Shown here: positions 5,337 through 37,521 of the stretch, in pieces | Layout of the letters: every line of letters begins with the position of its first letter | Numbering within the stretch: position 1 is the first letter of the stretch | Source of the DNA: Labrys monachus | GTDB lineage: Bacteria > Pseudomonadota > Alphaproteobacteria > Rhizobiales > Labraceae | Assembly (NCBI RefSeq): GCF_030814655.1 | Contig: NZ_JAUSVK010000001.1 | Span: 2,685,501-2,749,500, forward strand | Length of the DNA: 64,000 bases | Reading direction: 5' to 3' | Notes under the pieces: model-generated | What the model was told of the DNA's origin: nothing | The model's database searches: none | Seen by the model: only the letters and a program-made list of their open reading frames with translations | Translations under genes and position numbers: made by a program

Positions 5337-5663
5337 ATGGCAGTTGTAACGGGTCTGACCAACCAGGACGCCTCCATCGTCCTGGGCATGATTGCGCGCG
5401 GCGACAAGGATAACGACATCGCGGCTTGGTTCGGCGTGATCCAGGCGCGGGTCACCGAGGTGAAGAAGGGGGCTCACGGCCCCGCCGTCCGGGCGGTGGA
5501 CGACAATCTGCCGCCGAGGGGCGCCCCGGGGCCGAAGGGCCGGCGTGCGCGCTATTCCGTCGAGAAGGCGCTCGGCATCCTCAGGAAGGGCGGCGCCGAT
5601 TCGGTGGCCGAGGCCATCGCTGTCCTCGAGGGCGCCATCGCCAAGTTCGACAACGGCGCCTGA
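5337..5663 (+). CDS. Small protein with helix-turn-helix-like N-terminus
   Basis: This 108-aa protein opens with TNQDASIVLGMIARGDKDND, then IAAWFGVIQARVTEVK, which fits a sigma-like or resolvase-like helix-turn-helix. The middle is Pro/Gly/Arg-rich (PRGAPGPKGRR), and the end is a second helical unit (VEKALGILRKGGADSVAEAI). I take it for a small rhizobial DNA-binding-type protein of unknown target. A strong hairpin follows 50 nt after the stop. Confidence 0.6.
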   Translation: MAVVTGLTNQDASIVLGMIARGDKDNDIAAWFGVIQARVTEVKKGAHGPAVRAVDDNLPPRGAPGPKGRRARYSVEKALGILRKGGADSVAEAIAVLEGAIAKFDNGA

Positions 5664-5714
5664 CGGCCCGGTGCCGGACGCCGGGCGCCCGCCCGGGACG
5701 GGCGTTCCCCTCTT

Positions 5715-5744
5715 CGTCGGCTGACGTTCAGCCGACGCTTCCTT
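5715..5744 (+). terminator. Putative rho-independent terminator
   Basis: A perfect 10-bp stem, CGTCGGCTGA and its complement with a CGT loop (5715-5737), is followed by CTTCCTT. It lies 50 nt after the 5337 gene. The remainder of 5664-6128 shows no gene. Confidence 0.5.
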
Positions 5745-6128
5745 GCGCCGGGCTATCGGCGCGGCGGCGACGCCGGGCAACCGGCACGGCATCGCGGGCA
5801 GCACCCGCCGCCGTCTGCCCCCTTTTTCATGACGCGCGGAAGACCGGCGATACGGTTCCGCGCTCCCCTGCGAGCGGCGCCGGCACCCTGTGCGCGCTTC
5901 CCTGTGCTTCTTCCCTTTCCCTGTGCTCTCGGATCCGCGGCCGCGTCCGGATTCACCGTGGCCGCAGCGGGTTTGCGCGCGCCGGATCGTCCGCCTCGTC
6001 TCAAAAATTCCGTGTGATCACGCTCGACCAAGTCTCCACTGTTCCACAGCTTTCCATCGCCCAGGGGAAAGACAATTCAGAGGGAATCGATTAACAGATT
6101 TCAGTGTGGGAAACGCACGGGATGATCC

Positions 6129-7544
6129 ATGGTCTTCAGCTCCTATGGCTTTCTGTTCGTTTTCATGCCGGCATTCTTCCTGATCTATTTCTTGATCGGG
6201 AGCCGGTATCGGAATTTTGTGATCCTCGCGGGCAGCCTCATCTTCTATGCGCTCGGCGAGCGGTGGCGGATCGCCATCCTGCTGGTGTCGATGGGGGTCA
6301 ATTTCCTGCTCGGACTTCGCATCAGGAGGGGGCTCGCCGTCTCGCAGCATGCGGCCCGGCGCTGGCTGGTGGCGGGCGTCGTGTTCAACCTCGCTCTCCT
6401 CGCCTGCTTCAAATATCTCGGCTTCCTGGAGGAGAACGCCAATGAGGTGCTGAGGCTCTTCGGCGGGCATGATCTCCTGCCCATGGCCGGGATCGTCCTG
6501 CCGCTCGGCATCAGCTTCTTCGCCTTCCAGGGCATCAGCTATCTCGTCGATATCTATCGCGGCACCATCCGCGGCACGACGAACCTGCTGACCTTCGCAG
6601 CCTACAAGTCGATGTTTCCCCAATTGGTCGCGGGGCCGATCGTCCGCTATGCCGACGTCGCCGCCGAACTGGCGGACCCCAAGGCAGATACCGATGCGGT
6701 CTTCGCCGGCATCGGGCGCTTCATCCGGGGCCTGGCGAAGAAGGTGCTGATCGCCGACACGCTCTCGGTCACCGCCGATGCGATCTTCGCGCTGTCGCCG
6801 CGGGAACTCAGCCTCGAAACCGCCTGGCTGGGCGTGGCGGCCTACACGCTGCAGATCTATTTCGACTTCTCCGGCTATTCGGACATGGCGATCGGCATGG
6901 GCCGCATGATGGGGTTCAAATACCCGGAGAATTTCAACCACCCCTATGTCTCGCGCTCGATCGGCGAATTCTGGCGCCGCTGGCACATGACGCTCTCGGC
7001 CTGGTTCCGCGACTATCTCTATCTGCCGCTCGGGGGAAACCGCCGCGGCCGGGGCCGCACCTATCTCAACCTGGTCATCGTCTTCGCCCTCACCGGCCTG
7101 TGGCACGGCGCGTCCTGGACCTTCGTCGTGTGGGGGCTCTGGCACGGCCTGTTCATGCTCGTCGAGCGCCGGTTTGATCCCGGCGGCTGGCCGGTGCCCG
7201 GCTTCGTGCGGCACATCTATACGATGCTGGTGGTGATGGTCGGCTGGGCCCTGTTCCGCGCCGAGTCGGCCGCGGCCGCGGCCGGCATGCTCAAGGCGAT
7301 GTTCGGCTTCGGACCCGGAGGCGCCTTCGTCTGGCCGGTGGCGACCTTTATCGACCCGCTCGTCGCCGGCGCTCTGGTCGCCGGCCTCGTCTTCAGCATG
7401 CCGGTGCGTGCGCAGGTGGCCGCGAACCTTCCGGCGGCCTGGTGGATGCCGGCCTCGCTCGCCGTCGCCGGCCTCCTGCTGTCCGCGTGCGGCCTCAAGG
7501 TGCTCTCCGGCGCCTACAGCCCCTTCCTCTATTTCAGGTTCTGA
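6129..7544 (+). CDS. MBOAT-family O-acyltransferase, AlgI-like
   Basis: A 471-aa polytopic membrane protein of the membrane-bound O-acyltransferase family. It carries the AlgI-type blocks FFAFQGISYLVDIYRG, LVAGPIVRY, YFDFSGYSDMAIGMGRMMG and EFWRRWHMTLSAWFRDY, plus the catalytic histidine motif TGLWHGASW (His326). In alginate and cellulose acetylation systems such a protein passes acetyl groups across the inner membrane to a periplasmic partner. The next gene, 4 nt downstream, encodes such a partner, so the pair probably acetylates a surface polysaccharide. No polysaccharide synthase is nearby, so the acceptor is unknown. Confidence 0.92.
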   Translation: MVFSSYGFLFVFMPAFFLIYFLIGSRYRNFVILAGSLIFYALGERWRIAILLVSMGVNFLLGLRIRRGLAVSQHAARRWLVAGVVFNLALLACFKYLGFLEENANEVLRLFGGHDLLPMAGIVLPLGISFFAFQGISYLVDIYRGTIRGTTNLLTFAAYKSMFPQLVAGPIVRYADVAAELADPKADTDAVFAGIGRFIRGLAKKVLIADTLSVTADAIFALSPRELSLETAWLGVAAYTLQIYFDFSGYSDMAIGMGRMMGFKYPENFNHPYVSRSIGEFWRRWHMTLSAWFRDYLYLPLGGNRRGRGRTYLNLVIVFALTGLWHGASWTFVVWGLWHGLFMLVERRFDPGGWPVPGFVRHIYTMLVVMVGWALFRAESAAAAAGMLKAMFGFGPGGAFVWPVATFIDPLVAGALVAGLVFSMPVRAQVAANLPAAWWMPASLAVAGLLLSACGLKVLSGAYSPFLYFRF

Positions 7545-26252: not shown

Positions 26253-27809
26253 TCAGCGCGAGCCGGTCAGGTCCAAGGCGCTGGTCAGGTCGCCCAGAGG
26301 CGGCTGGTTGTAGGACGCAACGGCATCGTCCCGCACCGTGATCCCGTGCAGGGTCGGCAATTCGAAGCGGCGGGTGATGAAGCGCAGGATCGAGGTCGTA
26401 TCCATCGGCGTGTGGTCGACGAAGCCGCGCCGGGCGAAGGGGGAGATGATGATGGCGGGAATGCGCGAGCCCGGTCCCCAGCGGTCGCCCTTGGGTGGGG
26501 CGACATGGTCCCAGAGGCCGCCATTCTCGTCATAGGTGACGACCACGAGCATGTGCGCCCATTGGGGGCTCTTTTCCAGATGGGCGACCACATCCGCGAT
26601 ATGGGCATCGCCGGCCTGGATGTCGGCATAGCCGGAATGCTCGTTGAGGTCGCCCTGCGGCTTGTAGAACGACACCTGCGGCAGCGTGCCGGCGTCGATC
26701 GCCTTGATGAACTCGGACCCGCCGAGGCCGCCGTCGCGCAGATGCTCGGCGCGCGCGGCCGTGCCGGGCGCGAAGCTCGCATAATAGTTCAGGGGCTGAT
26801 GGTGGTATTGGAAATTGGGCACCGGCGTCTTGTTGCCGTGGTCGAGGACATATTGCCAGGCGCCGCCATACCATGCCCAGCCGATCTTCCTGAGGCTGAG
26901 GAGATCGCCGATCGTCGGCTCCGTCTGGGGAGGCAGGGTCGTCGGATTGGCCGGATCGGCGGTCGCCGGGTCCGCTCCCTTGGCCGGGGCGTTCCCGCTC
27001 GGCTGGTAAGACGGCTGCATGGTGTTCACGGCATGAAAATCGGGCGTCAGATTGCCGTCGCCGACGAATTTCGGAATGCCGTCGAGTGCGGATGCAGGCG
27101 AATTGACGGCGAGCTTCAGCGTGACCCCGTCCGGCTCGACGACCGCGATGGACGGCTTGGCCGGACTGGTGTCGGCGCCGGGATAGGAGGGCGCGCAGGC
27201 GCAGACGAGCCACTGATGGTTGAAGAAGGAGCCCCCGAAGCCACCCATGAAGAAATCGTCGGCGAGGACATATTTCCGCGCCACCTTCCACATCGCCGTC
27301 TTCGAACCGTCCCACAGGCTCATGGGCATGGCGCCGCTGTCGGCCCAGGCGACGAATTTGTCGTTCCTGCCGCCGTCGATCTGCATCTGGTTTTGATAGA
27401 AGCGATGCCACAGATCATGGGTGATGGATCCAAGCGGCAGGTTGAACCCGTCGGGGTCGTCGACCCTGAACGGCCGATTGGGCAGATGCGCGCTGTCGGC
27501 CTGCGTCACCGGCGGCGTTACCCCTTTGGCCGTGAGCCCGTCCCAGACCGGCGGCAGTTCCTTCAGAGGCATGCCGTCGCGGTCGCGCTGGAGGAGCGCT
27601 GTGCCCGACGCGTTCTGAAGGCCGTTGGCGCCGGGAAAACTGCCATAGAGATTGTCGAAGCTGCGGTTCTCCGCATAGATCACCACGACGGTATCGATCA
27701 ACTTCAGGTTCTGGGAAGGATCGTCATTGTATCCGGCGGCCAGCGCCGGCGACAGGATGCCGGCGGCAAGGCCGGCAAGGGGCGCGGCCACGATCAGTCT
27801 CGTCAGCAT
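26253..27809 (-). CDS. Secreted acid phosphatase/phospholipase C-like phosphoesterase
   Basis: A 518-aa precursor with a signal peptide (MLTRLIVAAPLAGLAAGILS, cut near ALA). It belongs to the phosphoesterase family of AcpA and bacterial phospholipase C (alkaline phosphatase fold). Seen: VVIYAENRSFDNLYG near the mature N-terminus, GGFGGSFFNHQ with the probable nucleophile Ser, QGDLNEHSGYADIQAGDAHI, and VTYDENGGLWDHVAPP followed by GPGSRIPAIIISPFAR. It should free phosphate from periplasmic esters. The ATG at 27809 with GGAAGG before it begins the signal peptide. Monocistronic. Confidence 0.9.
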   Translation of the reverse strand: MLTRLIVAAPLAGLAAGILSPALAAGYNDDPSQNLKLIDTVVVIYAENRSFDNLYGSFPGANGLQNASGTALLQRDRDGMPLKELPPVWDGLTAKGVTPPVTQADSAHLPNRPFRVDDPDGFNLPLGSITHDLWHRFYQNQMQIDGGRNDKFVAWADSGAMPMSLWDGSKTAMWKVARKYVLADDFFMGGFGGSFFNHQWLVCACAPSYPGADTSPAKPSIAVVEPDGVTLKLAVNSPASALDGIPKFVGDGNLTPDFHAVNTMQPSYQPSGNAPAKGADPATADPANPTTLPPQTEPTIGDLLSLRKIGWAWYGGAWQYVLDHGNKTPVPNFQYHHQPLNYYASFAPGTAARAEHLRDGGLGGSEFIKAIDAGTLPQVSFYKPQGDLNEHSGYADIQAGDAHIADVVAHLEKSPQWAHMLVVVTYDENGGLWDHVAPPKGDRWGPGSRIPAIIISPFARRGFVDHTPMDTTSILRFITRRFELPTLHGITVRDDAVASYNQPPLGDLTSALDLTGSR

Positions 27810-27878
27810 CCTTCCACTCCCAAATCGTCGTGATGGCGTTCTCAGCCGGAGCCTTGATCGCTGGCCCTGCACGGCAAG

Positions 27879-28725: not shown

Positions 28726-29133
28726 ATGACCCGCAAGGTCTTGATTGTGAGTGACAGTGAACTCGTACGCATGCGGGTCGTCGAGGCGCTCGCCGCCATG
28801 CGGCCAGGCTGGGCCTGTGCCGAGGCCGGGAGCGCCGACGAGGCGCACGCCATTGCCGAAGATCGTCCGATCGATGTCGCGTTCCTGGATTTCGAACTGC
28901 CCGGCGGCGGCGGCCTGCGGCTTGCCGTCGAGCTCCGGGCGCGGCAGCCGTCGCTGATCGTCGGCATCCTGGCGGACGCCCGGTGGGGACGGATCCGCCC
29001 GGGCGCGGTGGGGTTGCGGGCGGCATTCCTGCCGTCTCCGCTGACGGAGACGGCGCTCGGCGCCTTCCTGGACGCGGCCCTTCCGGCCGAACAGCCGAGC
29101 GAGCAGGATCTTCTTCCGGCGCAGGGCGCTTGA
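28726..29133 (+). CDS. Stand-alone response-regulator receiver domain protein
   Basis: The 135-aa protein is a single receiver domain with no output domain. The first strand VLIVSDSELVRMRVVEAL and the phosphoacceptor FLDFELPGGGG (Asp55) are clear. The acidic pocket reads SDSE rather than DD, and the usual Lys-Pro near the end reads SPLT, so phosphorylation chemistry may be altered. It has no adjacent kinase. It ends 64 nt before the end of the convergent epimerase gene. Confidence 0.8.
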   Translation: MTRKVLIVSDSELVRMRVVEALAAMRPGWACAEAGSADEAHAIAEDRPIDVAFLDFELPGGGGLRLAVELRARQPSLIVGILADARWGRIRPGAVGLRAAFLPSPLTETALGAFLDAALPAEQPSEQDLLPAQGA

Positions 29134-29197: not shown

Positions 29198-29821
29198 TCA
29201 CGCGGCCAGGGCGGCAGCCAATTCGCGGGCGCGATCGGCAATGTCGCCGCTGTCGAAGAGCGCCTTCCCCAGAACCGCGAGCTCCACCCGCGACAGCATC
29301 GGCAACCGGAGGTGCTGGGCCTGGAGGCTGCCGTCTATGATGGCGCGAGTCGTGGCCGGCAGCTTTTCGAGCCTTGCCAGAGCCTCCTCGGAGAAGGGGC
29401 CGCCGCCGGGAGGGGCGGTGAGAAGCAGCACGCCATCGGCCGCCGGCAGGAAAGGCTCCGCTGCAGCGACGGGCGTGTCGGGGAGCAGAGCCAGATAGGC
29501 GCGGGCTCCGGCCGCGCGGATGGCGAGAAGAAGCGCTGCGGGCTCGGGCATGGCTTCGAGGTGGAACGCGACGCTGCGGACGCCCATCCCTGCAAAACGG
29601 ACGGCCCAGGTCTCCGGCTGCTCGATCATCAGGTGGACGTCCACCGGGATCGGGCATTCCCCGACGAGGCGGCGGACGAGGCTTTCGCCGAGGCCGAAGG
29701 CCGGGGCGAAGCGCCCGTCCATGATGTCGACATGAAGGGAGGCGCTATAGGGGGCGACGGCCTCGATCGCTTCGTGCAGCCGAAGGGGATCGGCAGCATA
29801 GAGGCTGGGGGAAAGTCTCAT
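29198..29821 (-). CDS. Ribulose-phosphate 3-epimerase family protein
   Basis: A 207-aa TIM-barrel protein of the RPE family, which interconverts ketose phosphates at C3 (ribulose 5-P/xylulose 5-P, or allulose 6-P/fructose 6-P). Seen: LSPSLYAADPL, SLHVDIMDGRFAP with the metal-binding His and Asp, and VDVHLMIEQPE with the next His. The second catalytic Asp lies in IIDGSL. It is about 10-15 residues shorter than housekeeping Rpe. It overlaps the ABC ATPase gene by 4 nt and is last in the sugar operon, so it probably serves that pathway. Confidence 0.82.
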   Translation of the reverse strand: MRLSPSLYAADPLRLHEAIEAVAPYSASLHVDIMDGRFAPAFGLGESLVRRLVGECPIPVDVHLMIEQPETWAVRFAGMGVRSVAFHLEAMPEPAALLLAIRAAGARAYLALLPDTPVAAAEPFLPAADGVLLLTAPPGGGPFSEEALARLEKLPATTRAIIDGSLQAQHLRLPMLSRVELAVLGKALFDSGDIADRARELAAALAA

Positions 29822-31338
29822 GCCGCTTGCGACCAGGCATGGCGGCGCAGCGTCGCGATCGACAGGTCGTCCTCGGGAATGGCGTTGCCGTCGCAGGCGC
29901 CGTGCCGGAAGACAACGATCCTGTCGGCGATATCGAGAAGCTCCTCTTCCTCGCTGGATACGACGATCACCGACCCGCCGGAACGCGCGAAGCTGGAAAT
30001 GATCTCGTAGATCTCCGCCTTTGCGCCGATGTCGACGCCCTTGGTCGGCTCGTCGAGCAAAAGCAGTCTCGGCGCCTGCAAAAGTGCCCGCGCGAACAGG
30101 ACCTTTTGCTGGTTGCCGCCGGAAAGCGCCGTGATCGGCTGGCCGATGTCGCCGCGGACGGGGACGTGTCCGAGCGCGTCGGCGGCCGCCTTGCGAAGCG
30201 CGTCCCACCGCAGCAGTCCCGCTGACACGAACCGGTCGAGCACAGGCAGCAGGACATTGTCGATCGACGTCATCTGGGGAATGAAGCCGTCCGATTTGCG
30301 CTCTTCCGACAGGAAGGCGATGCCGGCCGCGATGGCGTGCTCGGGATCGCGCGGCGCGAAGGCCTTGCCGTTCAGGACCATCGCGCCCTCGGGAGAGGTC
30401 TCGGCGCCGTAGACGGTGCGCAGGAAGCGCGAACGTCCCGCGCCGATCAGCCCGTAGATGCCGAGTATCTCTCCGGCGTGAACCGCGAGGCTGACGCCGT
30501 CGAGGCCGTTGCCGGCCAGCGCGCGAGCTTCGAAGACGACATCGCCCGGGGCTCCGCCGCCCGGCGATCGCGCGCGACGGCCGGCCCCGGCCTTGCCTTC
30601 ATGGCCGGCGCCGACAATGGCCTCGACGACATCCTCGCGCCCGATCTTCGTCGCGTCGCCCGACAGCACGGTCCGGCCGTTCGACAGGCCCACGATGTGA
30701 TCGGCGACGGCGAAGACCTCGTCGAGCTTGTGATCGATCAGCAGGATGCCGACCCCCCGGTCGCGCGCCAGGCGCCGAAGGACGGCGAGAAGCTCTTCGA
30801 TCTGCTTCTGCTCGAGGGCCGTCGTCGGCTCGTCGAGCAGGAGATAGCGGACATCGCGATGAATGGCGCGCGCGACCTCGAGAAGCTGCCTGTGGGCGAC
30901 CGAAAGATGAGCCACGCGATCGGTGGAGGCGGCGGGAATGCCATATTCGGCGCAGAGCGCGTCGGCCTCCCGGTTCATGGTCCGGCGGTCGAGCAGGCCG
31001 CCCGACAGCTTCTCGGTGCCGAGGAACAGGTTCTCGGCGACCGTGAGCTCGCCGATCAGGCTGAGTTCCTGATAGACACAGGCGATTCCCGCCGCGCTCG
31101 CCTCGGACGGTGCTTGAAAGCTGACCGGCCGGCCGTCGATGCTGAGCGATCCCGCGGAGGGCGTGTCGGCCCCCGACAACAGGCGCAGCAGCGTCGACTT
31201 GCCCGCACCGTTATGGCCGATGAGCGCCACGATCCGGCCTGCCGGTATTTCGAGGCTGACATCCGTCAGGGCCTTGGTGGCTCCGTATGACTTGGAGACC
31301 TCGGCCACAACCAGACTTTCCCGGGCGCTCATCGGCAT
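29818..31338 (-). CDS. Sugar ABC transporter, ATP-binding protein (RbsA/MglA type)
   Basis: The 506-aa protein has two fused ATPase domains, as in ribose/galactose importers. Domain 1 has Walker A GHNGAGKST and LLLDEPTTALEQKQ. Domain 2 has a degenerate Walker A (GLIGAGRSRF), typical of the family, with LSGGNQQKVLFARALLQ and LLLDEPTKGVDIG. It powers import by the adjacent permease. It follows the binding-protein gene by 18 nt and overlaps the epimerase gene by 4 nt. Confidence 0.95.
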   Translation of the reverse strand: MPMSARESLVVAEVSKSYGATKALTDVSLEIPAGRIVALIGHNGAGKSTLLRLLSGADTPSAGSLSIDGRPVSFQAPSEASAAGIACVYQELSLIGELTVAENLFLGTEKLSGGLLDRRTMNREADALCAEYGIPAASTDRVAHLSVAHRQLLEVARAIHRDVRYLLLDEPTTALEQKQIEELLAVLRRLARDRGVGILLIDHKLDEVFAVADHIVGLSNGRTVLSGDATKIGREDVVEAIVGAGHEGKAGAGRRARSPGGGAPGDVVFEARALAGNGLDGVSLAVHAGEILGIYGLIGAGRSRFLRTVYGAETSPEGAMVLNGKAFAPRDPEHAIAAGIAFLSEERKSDGFIPQMTSIDNVLLPVLDRFVSAGLLRWDALRKAAADALGHVPVRGDIGQPITALSGGNQQKVLFARALLQAPRLLLLDEPTKGVDIGAKAEIYEIISSFARSGGSVIVVSSEEEELLDIADRIVVFRHGACDGNAIPEDDLSIATLRRHAWSQAA

Positions 31339-31356
31339 TCTCGTCGTTTACGGCAA

Positions 31357-32337
31357 TCAGCCGACTTCGCCCGGGCCGGGCTTCTGTCCGTTCAGGAAGA
31401 TCTTGAGCGGTTGCAGCACCTGCTGCGGCACATCCTGTCCGCCGAGGTATTTCTTGAGGTTCTCCAGCGCGATGCGGGCGTAATCGGCCGGCTCCTGAGC
31501 GGCGCAGGCGGCATAATTCGCGGTCAGCGCCGTGTCCGCGGCGCAGAAGGCATAGAGCTTCACGCTGTCGGCCTTGTCCTGCTGCGCGATGGCCTGCAGG
31601 GCGCCGACGGCGCCCGGCCCCGTGTCGGCCCAGATGACATTGATGTCGGGATGGCCCTGCAGAAGGTCTCCGGTCACCTGCAGGCTGACATTGGGGTCGA
31701 CCTTGCTGTTCACGGTGCCCGCGACCTTGGCGTTGGGGTTCTTCGTGATCGCGTCGGTGAAGCCCTTGTCCCTCTGGTTGGTCGGGATCTGGTCGGGATC
31801 GCCGACGATCCCCGCCACGACGGTGGCGCTGTCGCCGAGATCCTTGAGGAGCTGCTCGCCGATCTGTCGGCCGCCGGCGACCTGGTCGGCGCCGACATAT
31901 TCGACGAAGGAGGCGCCCTGCGCCTTGAGGTCCTCGTCCGAGACGATCACGTTCACCGTGAAGACCGGGATGCCGGCGTCGTTGAGGGCCTTCACGCTCG
32001 CCGCGCCCGGCCCGGAGTTGACCGCGTTCAGCACGACCGCGCATACGCCTTGCTGGACGAAGGCGTCGATCTGCGAGAGCTGGTTGGAATCATTGTCGTT
32101 GGCGATGGCGACGTTGACGGCGAAGCCCAGCTTCGCGCCATTCTTCTCGAAACTGTCCTGCATCGCGATATAATAGGGGTTGACGGTGTTCGGCAGCGCG
32201 ACGCCGATGGTCGGCTTGGCCTGGCTGCAGTTCGCCGGCAGCTTGGGGGCGGCGATCGCACTGCCATCCGCCAGAAGCATGCCGGCGCCGAGCGCCGCCG
32301 CGCCCAACAGCATCGATTTGAGGGTGGTGATCTTCAT
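31357..32337 (-). CDS. Sugar ABC transporter, periplasmic binding protein (type 1 fold)
   Basis: A 326-aa precursor with a signal peptide (cleavage near ADGSAIAA). The mature protein is an RbsB-like bilobal binder: IGVALPNTVNPYYIAMQDSFEK, AIANDNDSNQLSQIDAF, VVLNAVNSGP, FVEYVGADQVAGGRQIGEQLL and NVIWADTGPGAVGAL. Cys39 and two later Cys are present. AAGGAGGAAAGAA precedes the ATG. The ligand is a sugar or polyol, not identifiable from motifs. Confidence 0.93.
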   Translation of the reverse strand: MKITTLKSMLLGAAALGAGMLLADGSAIAAPKLPANCSQAKPTIGVALPNTVNPYYIAMQDSFEKNGAKLGFAVNVAIANDNDSNQLSQIDAFVQQGVCAVVLNAVNSGPGAASVKALNDAGIPVFTVNVIVSDEDLKAQGASFVEYVGADQVAGGRQIGEQLLKDLGDSATVVAGIVGDPDQIPTNQRDKGFTDAITKNPNAKVAGTVNSKVDPNVSLQVTGDLLQGHPDINVIWADTGPGAVGALQAIAQQDKADSVKLYAFCAADTALTANYAACAAQEPADYARIALENLKKYLGGQDVPQQVLQPLKIFLNGQKPGPGEVG

Positions 32338-32387
32338 TTCTTTCCTCCTTGGTTCTTCATGCTCATGCCTGTGCCTCGGCCTACGAG

Positions 32388-33455
32388 CTAGGCCGGTCCC
32401 TCCGGCTTTGTCGGGCCGGGGGTAATGCGTGCCGCAGCGTGAGGGACGGCGCGATTTTCGGGAGCTTTGCGGAATGTCCGCTTCGTGTTGTTGGCGCGGC
32501 GGTAGGTGTCGAAGGTGACGCCGAGCAGGATGATGACGCCGATGACGAGCGACTGCCAATAGCTCTGGACATTGACGACGTTCATGCCGTTGCTGACCAC
32601 GGCGATGAGCACGGCGCCGATCATGGCGCCCAGCACCGTGCCCACGCCGCCGAACAGCGAGACGCCGCCGACGACGGCGGCGGCGATCGAATAGAACAGC
32701 TCGTTGCCGGTTCCGGTCGCCGGGAAGCCGACCATCAGGCGGGAGGTGGCGATGAGGCCGCCCATGCCGGCACAGAATCCGCTGACGGCATAGGCGCAAA
32801 GCGTGGTGCGGCCGATATTGACGCCGGAGAGCCGCGCGGCGGCGCGGTTGCCGCCGAGCGCATAGATGTGGACGCCGCGACGGGTCATGTTGAGGAAGAG
32901 CCCCGCGATGACGGCGGCGACCACGATCAGCACCACCGGCATGGGCAGGCCCAGGATCCGGGCCCGGCCGATGAGGGAAAAGCCCATCTGATGAATGGAG
33001 ATGGACTGCGCCCCGGTAATGATCAGCGGGACGGCGAGCGCGACGCCCTGCGTCGAAAATGTCGCGATGAAGGCGGGTATGCGCAGGAAGTGAATGAGCG
33101 CGCCGTTGATCAGTCCGAGGGATGTCGCGACGGTCAGGGCCAGCAAGGCTGCCAGCGGCCAGGGCACGCCGAGCTGCATCAGCAGGGCGGCGAGGACACC
33201 GGTCATGCCGATCGTCGCGCCGGTGGACAGGTCGATCCCCCCGGTGAGGAGCACGAAGGTCTGGCCGAGGGCGAGGAAGGCGATGACCGTGCCGTTGACC
33301 AGGAGGACGAAGGCGTTGCTCACGGTCCGGAAGGAGGGCGAGAGCAGGCTCAAGGCCAGGATGACGACCAGCAGGACCAGGAAGATGCCGATTTCCTCGG
33401 GAAAGCGGCGCTTCCTGGACATGGCGGCTACCGTTTGGCTGGGAGGAGAGGCCAT
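32388..33455 (-). CDS. Sugar ABC transporter, permease (RbsC type)
   Basis: The 355-aa membrane protein has eight to ten helices of the BPD_transp_2 family. Landmarks are LGQTFVLLTGGIDLSTGATIGM, GLINGALIHFLRIPAFIATFSTQG, the EAA-like loop HIYALGGNRAAARLSGVNI, and GGVSLFGGVGTVLGAMIGAVLIAVVSNGMN. Its unusually long C-terminal tail (about 35 residues after TFDTYRR) is basic and Pro-rich. I used the ATG at 33455, 13 nt after the kinase stop; ATG 33422 is an alternative nearer the first helix. Confidence 0.92.
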   Translation of the reverse strand: MASPPSQTVAAMSRKRRFPEEIGIFLVLLVVILALSLLSPSFRTVSNAFVLLVNGTVIAFLALGQTFVLLTGGIDLSTGATIGMTGVLAALLMQLGVPWPLAALLALTVATSLGLINGALIHFLRIPAFIATFSTQGVALAVPLIITGAQSISIHQMGFSLIGRARILGLPMPVVLIVVAAVIAGLFLNMTRRGVHIYALGGNRAAARLSGVNIGRTTLCAYAVSGFCAGMGGLIATSRLMVGFPATGTGNELFYSIAAAVVGGVSLFGGVGTVLGAMIGAVLIAVVSNGMNVVNVQSYWQSLVIGVIILLGVTFDTYRRANNTKRTFRKAPENRAVPHAAARITPGPTKPEGPA

Positions 33456-33468
33456 TTGAGGTTGAGCC

Positions 33469-34923
33469 TTACGCGCGTTGGGTTGCAGATGCGGCCGCCG
33501 CAGCCTGGCGATAGGCCTGCCTGACGGCGCCGGGATCGGCGCCCATCGGCTCGGCCGCGATTTCAAGCGCCGGCGCCCACGCCGCCGCGATCGCGTCGGT
33601 CGCGGCCGCGGTCAGCGCCGCAGCGGCTTGCACCGCTGCGCCGGCGGCGGCGGTTTCCGCCAGCGGGCAGACCCAGACGGGGCGGCCCGTCAGATCCGCG
33701 AGGATCTGCCGATAGGCTTTCGAGCGGGCCGCCCCGCCCGTCAGGATGAGCCGGCCGCCCTGCGGCACCCCGTGCCGGGCGAGCAGATCGCCGCCCTCCA
33801 GAAGGCCGCAGAGCACGCCTTCGATGGTGGCCCGCGCCATGCAGGCCCGCGTGAGGGTCGAGCGCAGGCCGAGGAGCGTTCCAGTCGCGTCCGGCAGGTT
33901 GGGGGTTCGCTCCCCATCGAAATAAGGCACGAGGACGAGCCCGTCGGAGCCGAGGGGGGCTTCCAGCGCCAGTTCGTCGAAGCCCTCATAGGACAGGCCG
34001 AGCAGCCGGCGGATGGCATCGGTGACCTTGGCCGCATTGAGCGTCGTCACCATTGGCAGGAAGCCGTCCGCCGCGTCGGCATAGCCGTTGATCGCACCCG
34101 TGACATCCTTCACGCCGGTGCTGGACCGGCCGTAGATCGTGCCGCTGGTGCCGAGGGAGACGACGATATCGCCTTCCAGCACGTTCAAGCCGAGGGCCGC
34201 CGTCATGTTGTCGCCGGTCCCCGCACCGACGACGGCTCCCGCGAGGGCGCCGACGCCTGCGGCATCGCCGACGATGCCGGCACGTTCGTTGGAGGCCACG
34301 ATCGCCGGCAGCTTGGCAGACCAGTCGATGTCCGGCACGGCGAGGTCCGCGAGCGCGAAGTCCCACGCGTTCCGGAAGGGATCGAAATAGCCGGTGCCCG
34401 ACGAGCCGCCGCGCTCGGTGACGGCGCGCCCGGCGAGGCGATAGACGATATAGTCGGAAGGCAGCATGACGCGCCTGGCCCTGGCGACGAGGCCGGGATG
34501 GTTGCGCTCGGTCCAGGCGAGCTTCGATACGGTGAGGGCGGGAGCGGGCACCGAGCCGGTTCGCTCCGCCCATTCCGACGCCGGCAATGCCTTCAGCAAC
34601 CGTTCGGCGTCCGGCGCCGATTGCGTATCGTTCCAGAGCTTGGCGGGCCGCAGCGAGCGATCGGCGCCGTCGAGCATGACGAGACCGTGGCCCTGGCCGC
34701 CGACGGAGATGGCGGCGATGCGTGGAAGATATCCCTCGATCTGGGCGAGACAGGCCCTGAGAGCGTCCCACCAGGCTTCCGGCGCCTGCTCGCTGAGGGG
34801 CGGCGTGGTGGGGGGATGCGGGGCTCGTGCTTCCGCGACGACTGCGCCGTCGTCGAGGCGGCGAAGTTGCACCGTGCATGACTGCGTGGAGGAATCCACG
34901 CCCGCGACGAGGTCCCGTGCCAT
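33469..34923 (-). CDS. FGGY-family carbohydrate kinase, xylulokinase-like
   Basis: A 484-aa kinase with the two actin-like domains of the FGGY family. Seen: LVAGVDSSTQSCTVQL, AISVGGQGHGLVML, LWNDTQSAPD, LPSDYIVYRLAGRAVTERG, GAGTGDNMTAALGL, VSLGTSGTIYGRS, VPYFDGERTPNLPDATG and LTGGAARSKAYRQILADLTG. The GGQGHG and ERTPNLPDA blocks are close to xylulokinases, so a ketose such as a pentulose is a likely substrate. AAGGGG precedes the ATG, which lies 3 nt after the SIS-domain gene. Confidence 0.9.
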   Translation of the reverse strand: MARDLVAGVDSSTQSCTVQLRRLDDGAVVAEARAPHPPTTPPLSEQAPEAWWDALRACLAQIEGYLPRIAAISVGGQGHGLVMLDGADRSLRPAKLWNDTQSAPDAERLLKALPASEWAERTGSVPAPALTVSKLAWTERNHPGLVARARRVMLPSDYIVYRLAGRAVTERGGSSGTGYFDPFRNAWDFALADLAVPDIDWSAKLPAIVASNERAGIVGDAAGVGALAGAVVGAGTGDNMTAALGLNVLEGDIVVSLGTSGTIYGRSSTGVKDVTGAINGYADAADGFLPMVTTLNAAKVTDAIRRLLGLSYEGFDELALEAPLGSDGLVLVPYFDGERTPNLPDATGTLLGLRSTLTRACMARATIEGVLCGLLEGGDLLARHGVPQGGRLILTGGAARSKAYRQILADLTGRPVWVCPLAETAAAGAAVQAAAALTAAATDAIAAAWAPALEIAAEPMGADPGAVRQAYRQAAAAASATQRA

Positions 34924-34926
34924 CGG

Positions 34927-35568
34927 CTACCCCTTCGTCGGCGCGCCGGCCAGGCGCTGGAGGCTTGTCGCCGCGTCCCGTCCGACGGCACCGGAGGGAT
35001 GGGTGTAGAGCAGGCGCTGCCAGTCATAGTCACGGCTGACCCGCCCGATTTCGGCGAGGGCATCGAGAAGCGCCGAGATTGCGAGCGAGCTGCCCGTCGC
35101 GACGACCGAGCCGAGATCGGCGTCGTCGTCGAGCGAGAAGCAGATGACATGATCGGCCAGGACGGCCAGCGCGGAAGCCGGCGCGGCGGTGATGGCGATG
35201 ACGCCGGCGCATAGCGGCCTCGCCCTGCTGCAGAACGTGTTGAGCTCCTCGGAGCTGCCGCCCTTCGACAGGGCGATCACGAGATCCTGCGGCTGAAGCA
35301 CGCCGAGCCCGCCATGCAGGCCGTCGCCCGGCGAGAGGTAGAAGGCGGGCGTCCCGCACACCGACATCAGATGGGCCGCGCGCGCGGCGATGGTCCCCGA
35401 TGTGCCGCTTCCCGTGATCAATATCTTGCCGGTGGCCGATGCGATCGCCCGGGCGGCGCGCACGAAGCCGGAGTCGATGGCGCGGGCCATGCCGTGCACG
35501 GCGCGCCCTTCGGCTTCGATCACCGCGCGCGCCAGTTCCGCCAACCCTTCGTCGCTCAATGCCGGCAC
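34927..35568 (-). CDS. SIS-domain sugar-phosphate isomerase, KdsD/GutQ-like without CBS domains
   Basis: The 213-aa protein is a single SIS domain. ILITGSGTSGTIAARAAHLM, YLSPGDGLHGGLGVLQPQD and VIALSKGGSSEELN follow the order of arabinose-5-phosphate isomerases (PAEALHGDLG, ALSNSGET), but the CBS pair of KdsD is absent. 6-Phospho-3-hexuloisomerase is another relative of similar size. The start is GTG at 35568, with GGGAGGC about 8 nt before it; frames beginning further upstream run through the promoter. It is the first gene of the six-gene operon. Confidence 0.85.
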   Translation of the reverse strand: MPALSDEGLAELARAVIEAEGRAVHGMARAIDSGFVRAARAIASATGKILITGSGTSGTIAARAAHLMSVCGTPAFYLSPGDGLHGGLGVLQPQDLVIALSKGGSSEELNTFCSRARPLCAGVIAITAAPASALAVLADHVICFSLDDDADLGSVVATGSSLAISALLDALAEIGRVSRDYDWQRLLYTHPSGAVGRDAATSLQRLAGAPTKG

Positions 35569-35633
35569 CTGGCTGCCTCCCGATGGAATATTGTTGCCGC
35601 CAGCATAGTGACGTCGAGCGCTTTGCGTCAAGA

Positions 35634-35657
35634 GAGCATATGTGTGCTCAAATGAGC
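35634..35657. promoter_or_regulatory. Putative SorC operator upstream of the sugar operon
   Basis: GCTCAAATGAGC (35646-35657) is a perfect GCTC-N4-GAGC palindrome. It overlaps a second inverted repeat GAGCA-N6-TGCTC (35634-35649). The cluster is about 80 nt upstream of the SIS gene start. The same 12-mer type occurs upstream of the SorC gene. Confidence 0.55.
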
Positions 35658-35720
35658 GAATTATGCGGGCGCGAAAAAGCCTTTCCCGGCGAGCTGTGCC
35701 GGAACTCGGATGGCGGCGGT

Positions 35721-36656
35721 TTAGACGAGCAGGCGGCGGGCGACGCCGGCGTCGGTCACGAGGACATCGACCCAATTGCCGCGGAGGACGGCGGCGATGG
35801 CCTCGGCCTTCTGCAGGCCGCCGCCGATGCCGATGATCTCGGGAACATGCTCGAGCTGCTCACCGGTGATCGTGATGCCCTGTTCGTCCAGCCTGCTGGG
35901 AATTTCCTGGCCGTCCGAGCCGATCAGCGATCCGCACACATCCGCCACGACGCCGGCGGCGAGGGCCTCCCGGCGCCAATCGTCGGGAAAGCCCGAACAC
36001 AGGCAGGATTCCGCCGGATTCCATGAGCCGATGCCGACGACGAGGACGTCGATGCTGGCATATTTCTCGATCGCCGCCGCGACGGCGGGCTCCTGCCGCA
36101 GGCGCTGGGCCAGCGTCGGATCTTCGGTCCACATGGGACCGTAGATCGGGTAGGCCTTGCCACCGCTCAGGCTGGTCAGCCGGCGGACGAGTTCGACGGG
36201 ATTTTGCGAGATCTCGAGGCCTCCCGGCGTGCCCGCCACCTGGACGACGTCGACCTTGGGCAGATGCACCAGGGCTCTCGCCATGGCCGCGAGGGTCCGG
36301 CCCCAGGCGACGCCGAGCGTCTGGCCATCCTCCAGCCTCTCGTCGAGCAGGGAGGCGGCGAGATTGCCGAGCGGCGTGGTGAGATCGCTCGTCGACATGT
36401 CCGGACCGTCCAGAACCAGCACGGCCTTCAGGCCGTATTTGTTACGCACGGCCTGGCCGAGCTCGGCATTCAGGTCATCGGGTTCGGTGATGACGAACTG
36501 CACGATCTTCTGTTCGATGGCGGCATCGATCAGGCGGGCCACCTTGAAGCGCGAGACGCCCAGCTCATCGGCGATCTGTGACTTCGTCTGTTGCCCCAGG
36601 AAGTAGCGGCGGGCGGCGAGCGCGGCCTGGACGCGCTGCAGGGGACGACGGGGCAT
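35721..36656 (-). CDS. SorC-family (SorC/DeoR-like) transcriptional regulator
   Basis: A 311-aa regulator with an N-terminal helix-turn-helix (KSQIADELGVSRFKVARLIDAA, about residues 25-47) and a C-terminal sugar-phosphate-binding domain. Family blocks include LGVAWGRTLAAMA, VVQVAGTPGG, VLVVGIGSWNPAES and VCGSLIGSDGQEI, plus a closing IIGIGGGLQKAEAIAAVLRG. SorC proteins usually sense a phosphorylated intermediate of the pathway they govern. It lies just upstream of the operon, on the same strand. The ATG at 36656 is chosen because the DNA-binding domain begins right after it. Confidence 0.92.
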   Translation of the reverse strand: MPRRPLQRVQAALAARRYFLGQQTKSQIADELGVSRFKVARLIDAAIEQKIVQFVITEPDDLNAELGQAVRNKYGLKAVLVLDGPDMSTSDLTTPLGNLAASLLDERLEDGQTLGVAWGRTLAAMARALVHLPKVDVVQVAGTPGGLEISQNPVELVRRLTSLSGGKAYPIYGPMWTEDPTLAQRLRQEPAVAAAIEKYASIDVLVVGIGSWNPAESCLCSGFPDDWRREALAAGVVADVCGSLIGSDGQEIPSRLDEQGITITGEQLEHVPEIIGIGGGLQKAEAIAAVLRGNWVDVLVTDAGVARRLLV

Positions 36657-37444: not shown

Positions 37445-37521
37445 TGGTACAGTTGGGTGGACTCGAACCACCGACCTTCGGAGCCACAATCCGACGCTCT
37501 AACCAACTGAGCTACAACTGC
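37445..37521 (-). tRNA. tRNA-His (GTG)
   Basis: The minus strand folds as a full cloverleaf of 77 nt with encoded CCA. D-arm GCTC/GAGC, anticodon stem TCGGA/TCCGA with loop TTGTGGC (anticodon GTG), T-arm GGTGG-TTCGAGT-CCACC, acceptor GCAGTTG/CAACTGT. The discriminator is A73 and the base before position 1 is T, so the usual bacterial G-1:C73 pair is not encoded. This is the known alphaproteobacterial variant of tRNA-His that pairs with a divergent HisRS. Confidence 0.95.

Follow-up and report, generated by a model that had tools for sequence, protein, structure and literature searches.

An operon of seven genes in Labrys monachus would, on balance, serve to scavenge a ketopentose (D-ribulose or D-xylulose, possibly both). 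It lies in a stretch of 64,000 nucleotides (contig NZ_JAUSVK010000001.1, positions 2,685,501 to 2,749,500), here called the window. In this reading, which we place somewhat above even, the operon is a variant of the published D-ribulose system Rbl, with another importer and another kinase and with an added ribulose-phosphate 3-epimerase (RPE). The assignment is based on gene content, conserved gene order, residue patterns and a locus in another genome, G1045, that joins the two systems. The operon itself is real, conserved and rare. Its genes run on the minus strand from 36656 to 29198, as follows (aa, amino acids; ABC, ATP-binding cassette):

35721–36656, minus strand: SorC/DeoR-type sugar-binding transcriptional regulator, 311 aa (PF04198, 177.9 bits)
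34927–35568, minus strand: SIS-domain phosphosugar isomerase, 213 aa, GTG start, no CBS domains (PF01380 only)
33469–34923, minus strand: FGGY sugar kinase of the xylulokinase type, 484 aa (TIGR01312, 398.6 bits, cutoff 380.25)
32388–33455, minus strand: ABC importer permease, ribose type, 355 aa (PF02653, 107.1 bits)
31357–32337, minus strand: periplasmic sugar-binding protein, RbsB-like with altered pocket positions, 326 aa (PF13407, 136.7 bits)
29818–31338, minus strand: ABC importer ATPase, two-domain, AraG/RbsA type, 506 aa (PRK11288, 413.5 bits, cutoff 689)
29198–29821, minus strand: RPE-like 3-epimerase, 207 aa (PF00834, 118.5 bits)

A preliminary description of this DNA had named a tight operon, and all of the genes that it listed were found, closely packed on the minus strand between 29198 and 36656, with a gap of 3 bp between the SIS and FGGY genes and an overlap of the ATPase stop and the RPE start as ATGA. 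The identities that it gave are borne out: a KdsD-like SIS protein without CBS domains, for which PF01380 is the sole domain match, a xylulokinase-like FGGY kinase, which scores above the curated TIGR01312 cutoff, a ribose-type importer and a short RPE-like epimerase. The SorC/DeoR-type regulator was missing from it, although the gene lies within the region that it covered. Its further statement, that no standard pathway uses exactly this set, holds in part. For the exact seven-gene set no describing paper was recognised in a PMC full-text search, where most subscription papers are lacking; the core of the set, however, corresponds to Rbl as it is set out in the 2025 paper on that system (PMC12307932).

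Three components make up Rbl of Citrobacter rodentium: an ABC importer, an FGGY D-ribulokinase and, as the third, a KpsF-like SIS isomerase. The same paper (PMC12307932) states that growth on D-ribulose depends on the importer and the kinase but not on the isomerase, deletion of RblI giving no growth defect, that Rbl encodes no cognate transcription factor, and that AauA of enterohaemorrhagic Escherichia coli contacts D-ribulose through K37, W43, E118, H167, E196 and S223. The window operon likewise joins an ABC importer, an FGGY kinase and a KpsF-like SIS protein, but it differs in its binding-protein type, its single permease, its xylulokinase-type kinase, its added RPE and its own SorC regulator. 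At G1045, which belongs to the window's order, Rbl-like genes are preceded by a SIS gene and accompanied by a SorC gene. The SorC and SIS proteins of this locus are 64.4% and 57.4% identical to those of the window and lie in trees with window-type proteins of the same order, the inner supports being partly weak. Its kinase passes the TIGR01315 model (622.7 bits, cutoff 408.7), as does that of Pantoea sp. SO10 (690.3 bits); plasmids of the latter and of Duffyella have the Rbl-like layout of binding protein, ATPase, two permeases, FGGY kinase and SIS protein. The binding proteins of G1045, Pantoea SO10 and Duffyella carry K, W, E, H, E and S at all six AauA contact positions, which were located by a constant offset of one in the numbering of the Pantoea protein and, for the other two proteins, by alignment, AauA itself standing outside the alignment. 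One regulator type and one SIS type are thus paired in one genome with the importer and kinase of the Rbl kind and in others with those of the window. It is chiefly on account of this pairing that we read the window operon as a ketopentose system.

The gene order is kept in five other loci (Rhizobium sp. L51/94, G049, G305, G259 and G332; six with the window), so that the operon is not a chance grouping. Six of the seven genes are present at G004, from the window's own genus, with no RPE gene in the stretch, and Nakamurella has all seven gene types, the RPE-like one being divergent. The operon appears to be self-contained; in three loci of G305's genus, gene calls inspected by eye place no further sugar enzyme next to it. 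At 1e-50 the SIS protein had matches in 7 of 397 genomes sampled from the order of the window, probably Hyphomicrobiales, in 2 of 296 sampled from the class to which Nakamurella belongs and in 4 of 14 from G305's genus, the query genome being included in each case, and in 1 of 398 sampled from the phylum, which was the window's own. At 1e-30, 4 of 149 relatives matched. A scan of genome contigs with the SIS protein gave one relative, Nakamurella; an alignment used as the query might reach further.

The start of the SIS gene is most likely the GTG at 35568, which is preceded by GGGAGG and gives the protein of 213 aa. This protein scores below the cutoffs of the KdsD equivalog model (99.3 bits, cutoff 505), the KpsF/GutQ model TIGR00393 (94.9 bits, cutoff 203.7) and the 6-phospho-3-hexuloisomerase (PHI, HxlB) model TIGR03127 (34.2 bits, cutoff 160). 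It was aligned within a set of 15 proteins (window type, Pantoea/Duffyella, Listeria and L. paracasei) together with two KdsD references and three PHI proteins. The active-site residues of KdsD, K59, H88, E111, E152 and H193, are retained to different extents. H88, E111 and H193 are kept in all 15; the Lys59 position is Thr in all 15 and K in both KdsD references; the E152 position is D in the window protein, D or E in 14 of the 15 and G in Nakamurella. The phosphate loop reads S-K or S-R throughout the 15, and the three PHI proteins have Arg at position 59 and lack the H88 loop. Since H88, E111 and H193 are kept and the H88 loop is present, aldose-ketose chemistry of the KdsD type is likely. 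The window protein belongs to the same SIS family as KdsD and GutQ and shares those three positions with them, but it has no CBS domains, carries T in place of K59 and falls below the KdsD cutoff. Elsewhere the genome encodes another KdsD-like protein, which has 335 aa and includes CBS domains; the window protein is 34% identical to it.

The best solved relative of the SIS protein by sequence is 3fxa, from Listeria monocytogenes (6.4e-27, 34% identical), which likewise carries T at position 59, has Lys in its phosphate loop and is encoded in a gene run with an rpe. Listeria is not known to make 3-deoxy-D-manno-octulosonate (KDO), and it carries a SIS protein of this T59 type. The Listeria region (L035 4973–13728) contains the 3fxa SIS gene with rpiB, two RPE genes (one an rpe above cutoff) and a transaldolase-family gene, and also a galactitol-type phosphotransferase system (PTS) and a polyol-type dehydrogenase annotated as galactitol 1-phosphate dehydrogenase. 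PTS uptake and this dehydrogenase there replace the ABC importer and the FGGY kinase of the window. The T59-type, S-K-pattern protein of Listeria is thus found in a pentose-phosphate setting, which speaks for ketopentose scavenging. AlphaFold2 models of the SIS protein (mean pLDDT 67.2) and of the binding protein, the latter from two sequences (mean pLDDT 47.2), were not used further.

For the kinase, the passing TIGR01312 score was counted in favour of a ketopentose. Its best solved relative is XylB (3i8b, 6.3e-70), and the positions of the functional XylB residues H78 and D233 are kept. The operon differs from a XylB system in having no xylose isomerase; activity of the kinase on D-xylulose is predicted from its family. 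Genes next to relatives of this kinase point the same way. At G1015 a SIS gene and a window-type kinase gene are found with two medium-chain dehydrogenase/reductase (MDR) genes (no cutoff passed among the matches listed), an importer and an RPE-like candidate, and in Rhodococcus opacus an MDR dehydrogenase (identified by eye) stands with an importer, the kinase and an RPE-like gene, with no SIS match in the stretch. Such dehydrogenases beside the kinase clade are expected if the kinase substrate is a 2-ketose. In Rhizobium sp. L51/94 (L007 14603–16068) the FGGY kinase is annotated as two overlapping frames and may be broken.

The RPE-like protein keeps the metal-site positions His, Asp, His and Asp, and its HVD, VHLM and IDG motifs align with E. 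coli Rpe; in its clade the phosphate loop is shortened. Among the 11 loci with a window-type kinase, 8 contain an RPE-like gene that has either a BLAST match to the window RPE or a Pfam hit behind it (the window, Rhizobium L51/94, G049, G305, G259, G332, Nakamurella and Rhodococcus). Of the other three, G1015 has a candidate without a Pfam hit, and G004 and G044 have none in the stretch. Among loci with an Rbl-type kinase (n = 3; two scanned, Duffyella by annotation and layout) the gene is present in 0 of 3 stretches. These counts exclude two Pantoea plasmids (L028, L029), where rpe is in a separate convergent operon, and Paraburkholderia, which has another kinase type; the numbers are small, and as the loci are related no significance is given. 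The distribution by kinase type fits an order of kinase, RPE and SIS. Matches to RPE elsewhere in the genome are 32–37% identical for G004, and for G044 there is a single match of 28%. The lack of an operon RPE in these two genomes favours ribulose 5-phosphate and xylulose 5-phosphate as intermediates, for which a housekeeping RPE would suffice.

The permease, binding protein and ATPase match models of the ribose, arabinose and allose type, all below cutoff among the matches listed (for the ATPase, the best 25 of 193); the best NCBIfam match of the permease is a ribose permease (204.7 bits, cutoff 398). In RbsB the ribose contacts are D89, R90, N190 and D215. The window binding protein has N, V, T and C at these positions, which are changed in all nine members aligned; RbsB N13, N64, R141 and Q235 are kept in all nine. 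AlsB shares the RbsB residues D89, N190 and D215. With these pocket residues altered, the window protein probably binds neither ribose nor allose.

Taken together, these features suggest the following scheme. The SorC regulator would control the operon, the ABC importer would take up the free sugar, and the FGGY kinase, by its family, would phosphorylate it to D-xylulose 5-phosphate or D-ribulose 5-phosphate. The RPE-like enzyme, by its family and metal-site positions, would interconvert these two by C3 epimerisation, and the SIS protein, with H88, E111 and H193 kept and Thr for Lys59, would interconvert D-ribulose 5-phosphate and an aldopentose 5-phosphate by KdsD-type chemistry. A kinase of the xylulokinase type would thus supply xylulose 5-phosphate, RPE would turn this into ribulose 5-phosphate, and the SIS protein could act on the latter, the products feeding the pentose phosphate pathway. 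By analogy with RblI in C. rodentium, the SIS and RPE proteins would probably be auxiliary for growth.

Several observations weigh against this assignment. The strongest point against equating the operon with Rbl is that not one of the six AauA contacts to D-ribulose is present in the binding protein of the window, which must bind its ligand in another way. The window kinase also falls outside the TIGR01315 class of Rbl (23.6 bits, cutoff 408.7). The window SIS protein is 37% identical to that of Pantoea SO10 and 34% to that of Listeria, about as far as from the KdsD of its own genome, and the SIS tree has three separate groups: the window type, the Pantoea/Listeria type and KdsD. The Rbl side of these comparisons is represented by proteins of Pantoea SO10, Duffyella and G1045 in place of RblI and RblK of C. 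rodentium, and G1045 comes from a genome with 8% contamination, on a contig of 10,098 bases. The RPE-like protein scores below the cutoffs for RPE (TIGR01163, 118.2 bits, cutoff 212.6) and for AlsE (PRK09722, 88.9 bits, cutoff 271) and, in a tree with long branches, groups with SgcE (support 0.87–0.90) and weakly with AlsE (0.40), not with housekeeping Rpe; it may therefore act on another ketose phosphate. At G044 the SorC, FGGY and SIS genes are kept with another importer type and no RPE, and this exchange of importer means that substrates may differ between loci. Lastly, a single ketopentose needs no SIS or RPE beyond the housekeeping enzymes.

A more novel reading is that the operon encodes a hitherto undescribed pathway of three enzymes, with the T59-type SIS protein and the short RPE-like protein both essential, for example from a tetrulose to erythrose 4-phosphate, or from D-arabinose through arabinose 5-phosphate with the FGGY protein as an aldose kinase. 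We regard such a pathway as unlikely; if it were true, the T59 SIS proteins would be a new catabolic isomerase family, found in the window's order, actinomycetes, Enterobacterales and Bacillota.

The D-arabinose form is, taken by itself, improbable. Here D-arabinose would be imported, phosphorylated by the FGGY kinase to D-arabinose 5-phosphate, isomerised by the SIS protein to D-ribulose 5-phosphate and epimerised by RPE to D-xylulose 5-phosphate. Every window enzyme would be used exactly once, in series, and the SIS protein is KdsD-like with H88, E111 and H193 kept. An L. paracasei plasmid (L036 4316–10721) encodes a PTS, a YjbQ-family protein, a T59-pattern SIS protein, RPE and PHI; with no dehydrogenase or kinase annotated there beside the SIS, RPE and PTS genes, the PTS should deliver a sugar phosphate directly. 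However, Thr occupies the KdsD Lys59 position in all 15 SIS proteins aligned, and the FGGY functions given in rows of Table 1 of PMC3245297 are on ketoses, glycerol and gluconate, not aldoses.

More doubtful still is the import of L- or D-erythrulose, which would be phosphorylated, epimerised at C3 by the RPE-like protein and isomerised by the SIS protein to D-erythrose 4-phosphate. This route would call for each of the three enzymes, acting in series, the shortened phosphate loop of the RPE-like clade is consistent with it, and the MDR dehydrogenases that neighbour the kinase in G1015 and Rhodococcus could, by analogy, be erythritol or threitol dehydrogenases. The kinase, however, lies above the xylulokinase cutoff, and G1045 pairs window-type SorC and SIS proteins with a pentulose kinase and with a binding protein bearing the AauA D-ribulose contacts.

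A hexose route like that of E. coli als, from imported D-allose or D-allulose through allulose 6-phosphate to fructose 6-phosphate, has slightly poorer prospects. The als system also combines an ABC importer, an RPE-family 3-epimerase, an isomerase and a kinase, and so follows the same logic, and the RPE-like protein groups with SgcE and, weakly, AlsE rather than with housekeeping Rpe. The als isomerase is RpiB, not a SIS protein, and its kinase AlsK is not of the FGGY family. Residues D89, N190 and D215 of AlsB are N, T and C in the window binding protein, and the score with the AlsE model is below its cutoff (88.9 against 271). Moreover, the route would need RPE, yet the operon RPE is missing in G004 and G044, where the best matches elsewhere are 28–37% identical.

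The preliminary description had also proposed that the SIS and RPE pair could link an aldose phosphate or a 3-hexulose phosphate to xylulose 5-phosphate or fructose 6-phosphate. Pentulose phosphates are plausible in this role, but a PHI-type step from 3-hexulose phosphate to fructose 6-phosphate is highly improbable: hxlB does occur together with the window's clade of kinase and binding protein on Pantoea plasmids, and with its binding-protein clade in Paraburkholderia, but the window SIS protein scores 34.2 bits against a cutoff of 160 with the HxlB model and has the His88 loop that the three aligned PHI proteins lack, and the L. paracasei operon holds both a T59-pattern SIS protein and a PHI, which are unlikely to perform the same step. 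The Pantoea plasmids, many of them from onion, carry the window's kinase and binding-protein clade (59.7% and 45.6% identical in L028), and the convergent neighbour operon there contains hxlB, a short-chain dehydrogenase/reductase (SDR) gene, rpe, a galactitol-type PTS and a SorC-type regulator. Paraburkholderia graminis has a member of the binding-protein clade next to another ABC system, which is accompanied by a dehydrogenase gene, xylB and rpe.

The cluster of galactitol-type PTS, rpe, SDR and hxlB genes recurs in Pantoea and Klebsiella plasmids (L028 14971–20541; L034 5949–10071; L038 3771–9327), and its hxlB-SDR-rpe part has a DNA match in 226 of 5426 E. coli genomes. When the PHI/SDR/rpe cluster of Pantoea was searched for in genomes and plasmids of E. 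coli, an enteric PTS cluster emerged, which gave no clue to the substrate. Around the window operon, a tRNA-His gene lies upstream (37445–37521, minus strand), a stand-alone response-regulator receiver domain (28726–29133, plus strand) is convergent with the operon's 3′ end, and an acid phosphatase of the TIGR03397 family (837 bits, cutoff 362.75) is encoded at 26253–27872 on the minus strand. In Nakamurella (L006), a gene resembling the E2 of lipoyl-type 2-oxoacid dehydrogenases starts where the RPE-like gene ends (15820 onward), and genes for an enolase-superfamily dehydratase-like and a CutC-like protein lie near the SorC gene (5409–7463, minus strand), all identified by eye.

The operon is most likely a new variant of Rbl-type ketopentose scavenging and not a wholly new pathway. 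Its SIS type scores best against KdsD models yet lacks the active-site lysine of KdsD. If ketopentose scavenging is indeed its function, the importer and the kinase would have been exchanged around a kept regulator and SIS isomerase, and this form of scavenging would reach from enteric bacteria to rhizobia-like and actinomycete genomes.

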